The notes under the pieces are model-generated. The model was not told the DNA's origin. It searched no databases and saw nothing but the letters and a program-made list of their open reading frames with translations. DNA of 64,000 bases from Jannaschia rubra. GTDB taxonomy: Bacteria; Pseudomonadota; Alphaproteobacteria; Rhodobacterales; Rhodobacteraceae. Shown in pieces: positions 51,969 to 54,307 of the stretch. Position 1 is the stretch's first letter, and every line of letters starts with the position of its first letter. The DNA is taken from contig NZ_CXPG01000014.1 in the NCBI RefSeq assembly GCF_001403735.1, positions 134,001-198,000 of the forward strand, given 5' to 3'. A program made the translations under genes and the position numbers.

Positions 51969-52430
51969 TCAGACCCGATGATAGGGGCTGCCCGCAAGGA
52001 TGGAAGCCGCGCGGTAGAGCTGTTCGGCCAGCATGACGCGCACCAGCATATGCGGCCAGACCATCGCGCCGAAGCCGATGGCAAGGTCGGCCCGCGCGCG
52101 CAGGCCCGCGTCCAGCCCGTCCGCGCCGCCGATCACGAAGGCCACGTCGCACGCGCCGTCGCGCCAGTCGCCGATGCGGGCCGCGAAATCGGGCGATGTC
52201 ATCTGTTTTCCGCGTTCGTCGCAGAGAACCATTGCCGCGCCGGGGGCCAGGGCACGGTCGATGACCGCAGCCTCGGGACCCATCCCGCCCTTCGCCTCGA
52301 CCTCCACTATCGACACGGGCGGCAGGCCGACGCCCCGCCCGACCTTGGCGAACCGGTCGAGATAATCGTCGACGAGAGCGCGTTCCGGCCCCTTGCGGAG
52401 ACGGCCCACGGCGATGAGCTGCAACTTCAC
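51969..52430 (-). CDS. rlmH: 23S rRNA (pseudouridine1915-N3)-methyltransferase
   Basis: A 153-residue SPOUT methyltransferase acting on the 70S ribosome. The N-terminus KLQLIAVGRLRKGPE, the middle AFVIGGADGLDAGLRARAD (SAM-binding knot) and the C-terminal AEQLYRAASILAGSPYHRV are diagnostic. Translation begins at GTG (52430), one base after the rsfS stop (TGAGGTG); longer frames upstream shadow rsfS. rsfS and rlmH are both ribosome-linked and are probably coupled. Confidence 0.93.
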   Translation of the reverse strand: MKLQLIAVGRLRKGPERALVDDYLDRFAKVGRGVGLPPVSIVEVEAKGGMGPEAAVIDRALAPGAAMVLCDERGKQMTSPDFAARIGDWRDGACDVAFVIGGADGLDAGLRARADLAIGFGAMVWPHMLVRVMLAEQLYRAASILAGSPYHRV

Positions 52431-52431
52431 C

Positions 52432-52842
52432 TCAGATGGGACGGGCGGCTTGCGCGGCCGACGGGTCCTGCCACATCTTCTCGAGCTGATAGAACTCCCG
52501 CACCTCGGGGCGGAAGATGTGAACGATGACGTCGCCCGCGTCGAGCAGCACCCAGTCGCCCTGGGTCTTGCCCTCGGTCCGGGCGGTGCGGCCCAGCGTG
52601 TCCTTGAGTCTTTCGGACAGCTTCTCGGCGATCGACGTGACCTGCCGGGTCGACCGGCCCGAGCAGACCACCATGTGATCGGCCACGGACGACTTGCCGC
52701 GCAGGTCGATCTGCACAATGTCCTCGGCCTTGTCTTCATCGAGCGAGTTCAGGATGAGCGCGAGCGTGGCGTCGCTGGCCCTCTGGTCCCCCGGCGCGCG
52801 CGGAGCGTCGGCCGCATGGGAAGGTGTGGTATCGGCAGTCAG
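52432..52842 (-). CDS. rsfS: ribosome silencing factor RsfS, probable CTG start
   Basis: A 136-residue RsfS/Iojap protein that binds ribosomal protein L14 and blocks subunit joining in starvation. The core is clear: SLDEDKAEDIVQIDLRGKSS, DHMVVCSGRSTRQV, GDWVLLDAGDVIVHIF and REFYQLEKMW. There is no suitable ATG. CTG at 52842 has GGAGGA seven bases before it and gives the expected short N-terminus. In-frame GTG at 52881 lies about five bases after the predicted transcription start, and the next ATGs lie within or above the promoter. The CTG call is well supported but unusual. Confidence 0.85.
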   Translation of the reverse strand: MTADTTPSHAADAPRAPGDQRASDATLALILNSLDEDKAEDIVQIDLRGKSSVADHMVVCSGRSTRQVTSIAEKLSERLKDTLGRTARTEGKTQGDWVLLDAGDVIVHIFRPEVREFYQLEKMWQDPSAAQAARPI

Positions 52843-52892
52843 TGCCCGATCCTCCGGGATGTGGGGTCGCGCGCGGAGCACGACACCTGAAA

Positions 52893-52921
52893 AGTCTAGC
52901 ACCGGGGACCATCCCCGGCAA
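52893..52921 (-). promoter_or_regulatory. promoter for rsfS
   Basis: On the minus strand TTGCCG (52921-52916) and TAGACT (52898-52893) are exactly 17 bases apart. The predicted start near 52886 rules out the in-frame ATG at 52926 and leaves a leader of about 44 bases to the CTG at 52842. Confidence 0.6.
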
Positions 52922-52972
52922 CGCATCAGGGGCCATGTGGGCATCCCGCTGCCCATCGTCAATGCGCCCCCG

Positions 52973-54307
52973 TCAGTCGCCCGGCGTCTGCGGACCGGCC
53001 GCATCAGCCAGCACACGCACCTCGCGCTGTGGGAAGGGAATGGAGATGCCCGCCTCCCTGAATGCGTCCCAGAGGGCCAGGTAGACGTTGCCGCGAATGT
53101 TCGTGAGGCCCTGCGTCGGATCCGCGATCCAGAACCGCAGGATGTAATCCACAGACGAGTCGCCGAAACCGACGATGTGACAGACGGGCGGCGTCGATTT
53201 CAGCACGCGCGGCGTGTCGACCGCTGCTTCTATGGCGACCTTGCGGACCAGATGCGGGTCGTCGCCGTAGGCCGTGCCGAAGAAGATGTCGAGGCGCACG
53301 AAGCTGTTCGAATGGGACCAGTTCACCACCTGCCCGGTGATGAGATCCTCGTTCGGGATCAGATATTCCTTGCCGTCGCGCGTGGTGATCGACACGTAGC
53401 GGGCTGTCAGCGAGTTGATCCATCCGAAGGTGTCGCCGATCGTTATGACGTCGCCGGGCTTGATCGACTTGTCGAGCAGGATGATGAACCCCGAAACAAG
53501 GTTCGACACCACCTTTTGCAGGCCGAAGCCGAGGCCCACGCCGATCGCGCCCGACAGGACCGCAAGCCCCGTGAGGTCGAACCCCACCGCCTTGAGCCCC
53601 AGGAAGAACGCGCCGACGTAGAGAACGATCTGGACCAGCTTGACGACGAGGACCCGCATCGAAGGGCTGATGTCCTCGTTCTTCGAGATACGGCTGGCCG
53701 TGGTGCGCGCCAGAACGCGGGCGCCCGCGAACAGGACGCCGATGGCCACCAACGCCGTGACGATGCCAAGGGCCGAGACGCGAAAGGTCCCGAACTCGAT
53801 GGCCAGGTCGTTCAGAAGCTGCCGTGTCTCGTCGAGGACGCCGAGGTAGAACAGCGTGACATAGATCCACAGTCCCCAGGTCACGATCTTGCGCAAGAAC
53901 GGGTTGCGCACCAGGCGCGCGACGAAGCTGACCACCATCCAGGCCGTGCCCATGGTCGCGGCAAGGCCTATAAGATAGCTGCGCGAGGGCCATGTCACCT
54001 CGCGCATCACGAGGAACACGGCCCAGCCCAGCAGGGCGAAGATCACCAGTCCCAGCCGGTTGCGCACGATCACAAGCCAGCGAAGCTGCCATTTCGGACG
54101 GCCGGTCTGGTTCCGCATCCAGCGCGTCATCGCGTCGCCCGCCAAGCGCCGTAGCACCCAGGCGAGCAGCACCAGGCCGAGGATGATGAAGCACTGCCAC
54201 AGCTTCCACCCCGGCTGCAGCATGTCGGCCACCATCCCCGACGCCTGCGCCCAGAGGCTCAGGAGTTCGTCGCGCAGGGGGATCGTTTCGAGGATGTCGT
54301 CTTCCAT
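52973..54307 (-). CDS. MscS-family mechanosensitive channel
   Basis: A 444-residue membrane protein. About five hydrophobic helices fill residues 28-240. The MscS core follows (AVLSGAIGVGLGFGLQKVVSNLVSGFIILLD), then the beta-domain (IKPGDVITIGDTFGWINSLTARYVSITTRDGKEYLIPNEDLI) and the C-terminal alpha/beta domain. It is longer than E. coli MscS and closer to YbdG/YnaI-type channels with extra N-terminal helices. It should release solutes on hypo-osmotic shock. It lies between the sulfotransferase-like gene and rsfS on the same strand. Confidence 0.93.
   Translation of the reverse strand: MEDDILETIPLRDELLSLWAQASGMVADMLQPGWKLWQCFIILGLVLLAWVLRRLAGDAMTRWMRNQTGRPKWQLRWLVIVRNRLGLVIFALLGWAVFLVMREVTWPSRSYLIGLAATMGTAWMVVSFVARLVRNPFLRKIVTWGLWIYVTLFYLGVLDETRQLLNDLAIEFGTFRVSALGIVTALVAIGVLFAGARVLARTTASRISKNEDISPSMRVLVVKLVQIVLYVGAFFLGLKAVGFDLTGLAVLSGAIGVGLGFGLQKVVSNLVSGFIILLDKSIKPGDVITIGDTFGWINSLTARYVSITTRDGKEYLIPNEDLITGQVVNWSHSNSFVRLDIFFGTAYGDDPHLVRKVAIEAAVDTPRVLKSTPPVCHIVGFGDSSVDYILRFWIADPTQGLTNIRGNVYLALWDAFREAGISIPFPQREVRVLADAAGPQTPGD

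Follow-up and report, generated by a model that had tools for sequence, protein, structure and literature searches.

The window analyzed here, a stretch of 64,000 nucleotides from the genome of Jannaschia rubra, carries an rsfS gene on its minus strand. The rsfS product scored over the curated cut-offs of TIGR00090 (122.5 bits for a cut-off of 56.9) and PF02410 (118.6 bits for a cut-off of 21.6). It is followed by rlmH, which starts 1 nt past the rsfS stop codon; the same gene order is found in E. coli. RsfS is described as an anti-association factor, and S. aureus RsfS as a protein that binds uL14 and blocks subunit joining (PMC7125091). The features of the locus are collected in Table 1.

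Table 1. Features of the rsfS locus (positions in the window)
Feature	Position	Strand	Basis or remark
rsfS coding sequence read from CTG	52432..52842	-	136 aa, stop codon 52434-52432
Conserved RsfS domain (PF02410, residues 30-124)	52471..52755	-	profile match
rlmH (GTG start), downstream neighbour, control gene	51969..52430	-	ORF reading
CTG start codon	52840..52842	-	SD-backed, in frame; relatives agree
Shine-Dalgarno GGAGGA, 7-nt spacer to CTG	52850..52855	-	sequence reading
In-frame GTG, rejected start	52879..52881	-	~5-nt leader, weak SD
Predicted 44-nt 5' leader, transcript start ~52886	52843..52886	-	from -10 position
Extended -10 TGC-TAGACT (TAGACT 52898-52893)	52893..52901	-	genus and order comparison
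Inverted repeat CCGGGGATGGTCCCCGG between -35 and -10, possible operator	52902..52918	-	same-genus spacers
-35 element TTGCCG	52916..52921	-	17-nt spacer to -10; genus comparison

From the promoter region to the conserved domain there are three in-frame candidates for the rsfS start, ATG 52926, GTG 52881 and CTG 52842, and only the CTG is preceded by a strong Shine-Dalgarno (SD) sequence (SD energy -9.5, compared to -2.1 at the GTG). An earlier note, made from the letters of this DNA, had placed the start at this CTG, seven bases after GGAGGA; on the minus strand these coordinates hold, and 136 residues are read from the codon to the stop. ATG 52926, which the same note had set aside because of the promoter, indeed lies upstream of the -35 element. 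SD-like sites before CTG are not rare in the window (GGAGG is found 5-8 nt before CTG 28 times, for 13 expected), and the conclusion on the CTG therefore rests on the relatives and not on the single sequence. In a wider count over 0.49 Mb from 81 sources, the window and 80 named loci, CTG occurred 5-8 nt after GGAGG 82 times for 67 expected, recognised rsfS sites being excluded; the measure of start use is a blunt one, since even ATG at this distance reached only 74 for 48 expected in the same sources. A sequencing error as the origin of the CTG was ruled out by its retention in relatives.

Comparison sets comprised 163 non-identical loci from Rhodobacterales, 113 from other Alphaproteobacteria and 39 from other Proteobacteria; three loci, too close to a contig end or identical, were dropped from the class set or merged. 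All 20 same-genus loci have an SD sequence and an in-frame CTG. In three of them (L003, L007 and L012) the open frame contains no ATG, GTG or TTG anywhere from the in-frame stop to the conserved core, and the six named Jannaschia loci (L021-L026) resemble the other same-genus loci in upstream translation and start context. At the level of the order, the best SD-backed rsfS start was CTG in 160 of the 163 Rhodobacterales loci. The search for a conserved ATG elsewhere in relatives, suggested earlier as a check, thus returned the CTG, and the proposed start is well supported. GGAGG was found 8-11 nt ahead of a CTG in the RsfS frame in 153 loci (145 at 8 nt, 7 at 9 nt and 1 at 11 nt), and this motif did not occur within 150 nt in the other two frames. 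Because this very motif was the criterion for the set of 153 loci, our statements on the constancy of the CTG rest on the 160 of 163. The 10 loci outside this set consist of 7 with an in-frame CTG and another SD or spacing, and 3 without. Three loci, all named Octadecabacter (L037, L052 and L056), have no such CTG, an ATG start and a different N-terminus, which counts against a general CTG start. Another Octadecabacter locus, L045, retains the CTG.

The distance from the CTG to the core varies, with 17 different lengths from 16 to 36 codons when L012 is read from its correct CTG. With this reading no stop separates CTG and core in the RsfS frame, as compared to 145 and 127 in the other frames; the lone in-frame stop (152 of 153 loci stop-free) appears when L012 is read from a wrong upstream CTG. 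In 107 loci an ATG in the RsfS frame follows the CTG ahead of the core; there SD energies average -9.9 for the CTG and -3.8 for the ATG. CTG accounts for just 17-82% of the codons in eight conserved Leu columns of the core, and the near-invariance of the start site is therefore one of the codon. The coding signal just after the CTG is weak and counts against the proposed start: differences by codon position were distributed 52/50/74 (p = 0.049), and 35 changes were synonymous versus 89 non-synonymous. The upstream control was flat (53/62/55). Pairs of type I relatives, which share the stop/start overlap described below, gave 58/60/89 (p = 0.013), and the 7 type II pairs gave 38/32/47, which is not significant (p = 0.23).

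The promoter TTGCCG-17-TAGACT of the earlier note was found again at its coordinates, with TGC preceding TAGACT, and 17 of the 20 same-genus loci agree with it, showing TTG-N17to20-[TC]G[CT]TA (N17 in 15 of these). A mechanical promoter scan of positions 52300-53300 with a threshold of 9-of-12 found no promoter; by hand count the rsfS promoter scores 8 of 12, under this threshold. In the Rhodobacterales set, TG.TA...Y was present 32-80 nt before the CTG in 131 of 153 loci, for 10.1 expected from single-base shuffles, and the leader predicted from these 131 loci has a median length of 48 nt. An in-frame ATG, GTG or TTG is present within the predicted leader in 54 of the 131 loci, which counts against the CTG start; in 11 of these 54 the codon lies at least 12 nt from the transcript start and has an SD energy of -4 or better. 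As a side observation, dyad ends of the CCGG type, as in CCGGGGATGGTCCCCGG, were seen in 13 of the 17 matched spacers (20 same-genus loci examined) and possibly form an operator.

SD-backed rsfS starts in the other Alphaproteobacteria were ATA (21), CTG (15), ATC (11) and ATT (4), i.e. 51 of 59 calls, the canonical ones being ATG (4), GTG (3) and TTG (1), with no call in 54 of the 113 loci. With a stricter SD threshold, 20 near-cognate codons were found in frame for 4.2 expected, and 2 and 1 out of frame for 3.9 and 2.7 expected. ATA accounts for 21 of the 36 Ile codons at start sites; of the 264 core Ile codons it makes up 14 (Fisher p = 6e-14), fewer than any other Ile codon of these rsfS genes. 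An open frame devoid of ATG, GTG and TTG was observed in 9 of 163 Rhodobacterales, 16 of 113 other alphaproteobacterial and 0 of 39 other proteobacterial loci. Among the latter, as listed, rsfS starts mostly with ATG, often at codon -3, and sometimes with TTG or GTG; the E. coli start is TTG, both in our reading of the sequence and in the literature (PMC10917681). The control gene rlmH was mostly uninformative for SD-best calls, which were 'none' in 74 of 87 other alphaproteobacterial and 151 of 163 Rhodobacterales loci. By alignment, RlmH starts at ATG, GTG or TTG in 157 of the 163 Rhodobacterales loci and in 75 of the 87 from other Alphaproteobacteria. In the genome of the window, infC (L267, about position 2040, minus strand) has no ATG, GTG or TTG before its conserved region, and its likely start is an SD-backed ATC with GGAAGGA upstream.

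The leader itself was examined for RNA structure. In the window its folding is unremarkable (z = -1.28). Outside the genus of the window, the sequence from promoter to SD contains an element GCCC-A-GCGCCG-GGGC-N-CGGCGC that is compatible with an H-type pseudoknot. Both stems pair fully in 75 of the 133 loci there and in 0 of the 20 same-genus loci (0.35 and 0.0, respectively, in shuffled leaders). In these 75 loci, for example L040, L068 and L107, the element lies in the 60 nt ahead of the rsfS CTG. Its pairs covary: in an alignment of 60 loci, picked from 115 divergent ones mostly for showing the element, 97.5% of the cells pair and 34 cells changed on both sides, compared to 6.7 in shuffles, a value reached by 0 of 500; stem 1 alone lies above nearly every shuffle. 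With a sequence-structure model (R1), the rsfS leader was the best match in 15 of 16 genomes, all chosen as carriers and 10 of which had supplied a model sequence, and weaker matches were found elsewhere, up to E = 8.6e-4. In three same-genus genomes the rsfS leader was not among the matches listed for this model. An exact-pattern search for the pseudoknot gave 10 of 41 genomes and was distrusted, all listed matches having CCCGG though the R of the pattern allows A. Rfam gave no match at E<=1 in positions 52300-53300 of the window, and none at E<=0.1 in nine relative loci.

Two other explanations bear on the CTG of the window. The gene could start at GTG 52881 with a product of 149 aa, as a gene caller limited to ATG, GTG and TTG would choose, this being the nearest canonical in-frame codon upstream. 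Its position, about 5 nt past the predicted transcript start, and its weak SD score of -2.1 bear out the earlier remark that it is poorly placed; other same-genus loci, as listed, have no GTG at this place, and we hold this start to be highly improbable. The conserved CTG could also belong to a motif of the RNA or of a leader peptide (ATG TCC TGT, or self-pairing of SD and start) and not be a start at all. The flanking bases are conserved, with GTC before the CTG and TCT after it, and RNAalifold predicts pairing between the SD and start regions. However, the same-genus loci have neither the ATG nor the preceding GTC and still have the CTG in 20 of 20 cases, no clear covariation is seen in the pairs of the proposed hairpin, and ATA, ATC and ATT at the position set by the SD in other Alphaproteobacteria fit start codons and not a motif. 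A mini-hairpin AGGAC-AAT-GTCCT of SD and start, with all five pairs in 35 of 73 distinct 19-mers, is not claimed here: its covariation is at shuffle level except for one pair (54, compared to a shuffle mean of 49 and a maximum of 54 of 2000). A motif without a start function is accordingly judged very unlikely.

A more serious competitor concerns the relatives. In 97 of the 153 Rhodobacterales loci an out-of-frame ATG is located 5 nt upstream of the rsfS CTG. The leader ORF which it opens has 17-21 codons in 95 of the 97 loci (mostly 18-19, MSCL...) and 25 and 39 in two, and in all 97 its stop overlaps an in-frame internal rsfS codon, ATG (83), GTG (12) or TTG (2). This overlap is partly forced, because a TGA in the leader frame always covers an NTG codon; the informative part is the ATG, found in 83 of 97 loci with the -5 ATG and in 6 of 56 without (Fisher p = 1e-20, the loci being not independent). 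Where the overlapped ATG lacks a TGA of its own, the stop lies just ahead (13 TAATG and 8 CTGATG cases). Most Rhodobacterales outside the genus of the window could hence make RsfS mainly by coupled re-initiation: translation would start at the -5 AUG, proceed through the short leader to the stop on the internal in-frame start and restart there, the CTG being minor or incidental. Recoding tests on 95 loci, wrongly taken as independent, gave 0 stops in the leader frame for 18.7 expected, i.e. more openness than the RsfS frame explains, and from the CTG to the internal ATG the leader frame has stops in 5 of 1496 codons compared to 69 of 1496 in the third frame, which counts against the CTG reading. 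On the other side, the same tests, with loci again wrongly taken as independent, gave 0 stops in the RsfS frame for 11.6 expected, more openness than the leader peptide explains; by these tests both frames appear to be kept open. In addition, GGAGG is merely 3 nt from the -5 ATG, and the CTG is retained without the leader in the 56 CTG-selected loci and in 7 of those left out. Re-initiation of this kind is no explanation for the window and its genus, where the -5 ATG is found in 0 of 20 loci and the -5 AUG coupling is therefore absent. As the main route in the other Rhodobacterales we regard it as unlikely, though with a real share of the probability. A second, shorter RsfS may be made from the internal start in these 97 of the 153 loci, all of which lie outside the genus of the window.

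We thus return to the CTG and consider it very probable, from the comparison of sequences, that rsfS is a promoter-driven gene with an SD-backed CTG start, that this start is selected to be non-canonical, and that it serves as a brake presumably linked to IF3. The gene's own promoter would yield a transcript with a 5' leader of some 44 nt, on which GGAGGA would set the initiator tRNA on the CUG, probably decoded as formyl-Met, to give RsfS of 136 residues. Selection would hold the start outside ATG, GTG and TTG, at CTG in Rhodobacterales and at ATA, ATC, ATT or CTG in many other Alphaproteobacteria. That it stays poor across orders while switching between CTG, ATA, ATC and ATT points to selection for poorness itself. 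The strong SD presumably makes the poor codon usable at all. Poor pairing in the P site would keep RsfS low and its synthesis dependent on IF3, as with infC. As IF3 hinders the joining of subunits from one of them and RsfS from the other, a fall of IF3 relative to ribosomes might then, more speculatively, release RsfS synthesis. It is plausible that the CUG limits expression, as proposed before, and this would suit a silencing factor; an infC-like, IF3-sensitive brake is a likely role of the start. Codon choice alone is no proof of IF3 control. Two reports count against the use of CTG: CUG yielded about 0.86% of AUG in one measurement (PMC11497404), and an SD-backed CUG of Caulobacter dnaA gave a toeprint but no use in vivo (PMC8443254).

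The closest known case is infC, likewise the gene of an anti-association factor with a strong SD and a start outside ATG, GTG and TTG, AUA in S. aureus (PMC13009471) and ATC in the genome of the window. Judged by sequence, rsfS shares the characters of this kind, a non-canonical start conserved in relatives and a strong SD at a fit spacing; it differs in that its product acts on the 50S subunit, its codon is CUG and its IF3 dependence is conjectured. The S. aureus genes ccpN, cvfC1 and citZ also have non-canonical starts, with reporter expression from AUA and AUU at about 10% of that from AUG in poor medium, and the infC, cvfC1 and ccpN sites are described as having an extended SD; they differ from rsfS as other genes of another phylum, measured by Ribo-Ret and reporters (PMC13009471). 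In E. coli the same gene, rsfS, has a weak TTG start with a purine-rich SD (PMC10917681), UUG being given as 29.8% of AUG compared to 0.86% for CUG (PMC11497404). Start-codon-limited translation as in infC is thus already known, and its wide occurrence in alphaproteobacterial rsfS would be new; our literature search, which saw its sources in part, returned no report of CUG, AUA or AUU starts for rsfS. Leader-peptide genes coupled by overlapping stop and start are also a known kind. The type I rsfS relatives share this overlap with them, but their leader, unlike that of the coupled genes, also overlaps an in-frame CTG-started extension; this arrangement is absent from the window.

We tentatively extend this reading, with less than even confidence, to rsfS of the Alphaproteobacteria as a second infC, kept throughout the class on starts which IF3 rejects, the fidelity of start-codon choice thereby tying the two anti-association factors to each other, to which many Rhodobacterales would add an undescribed device. 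The latter would combine the leader pseudoknot with one SD for two overlapping starts, an AUG that opens a short leader, to which a short RsfS would be coupled, and a CUG for a long RsfS. Such an elaborate rsfS leader is possible in many Rhodobacterales. CUG is reported to account for 0.024% of bacterial start codons (PMC11497404), and a proteogenomic re-annotation of Roseobacter describes new starts as checked against ATG, GTG and TTG (PMC3305630); rsfS N-termini may therefore well be mis-annotated across a bacterial class. A deliberate translational brake in rsfS would escape standard annotation, and the control by IF3 of genes beyond its own is a directly testable question.
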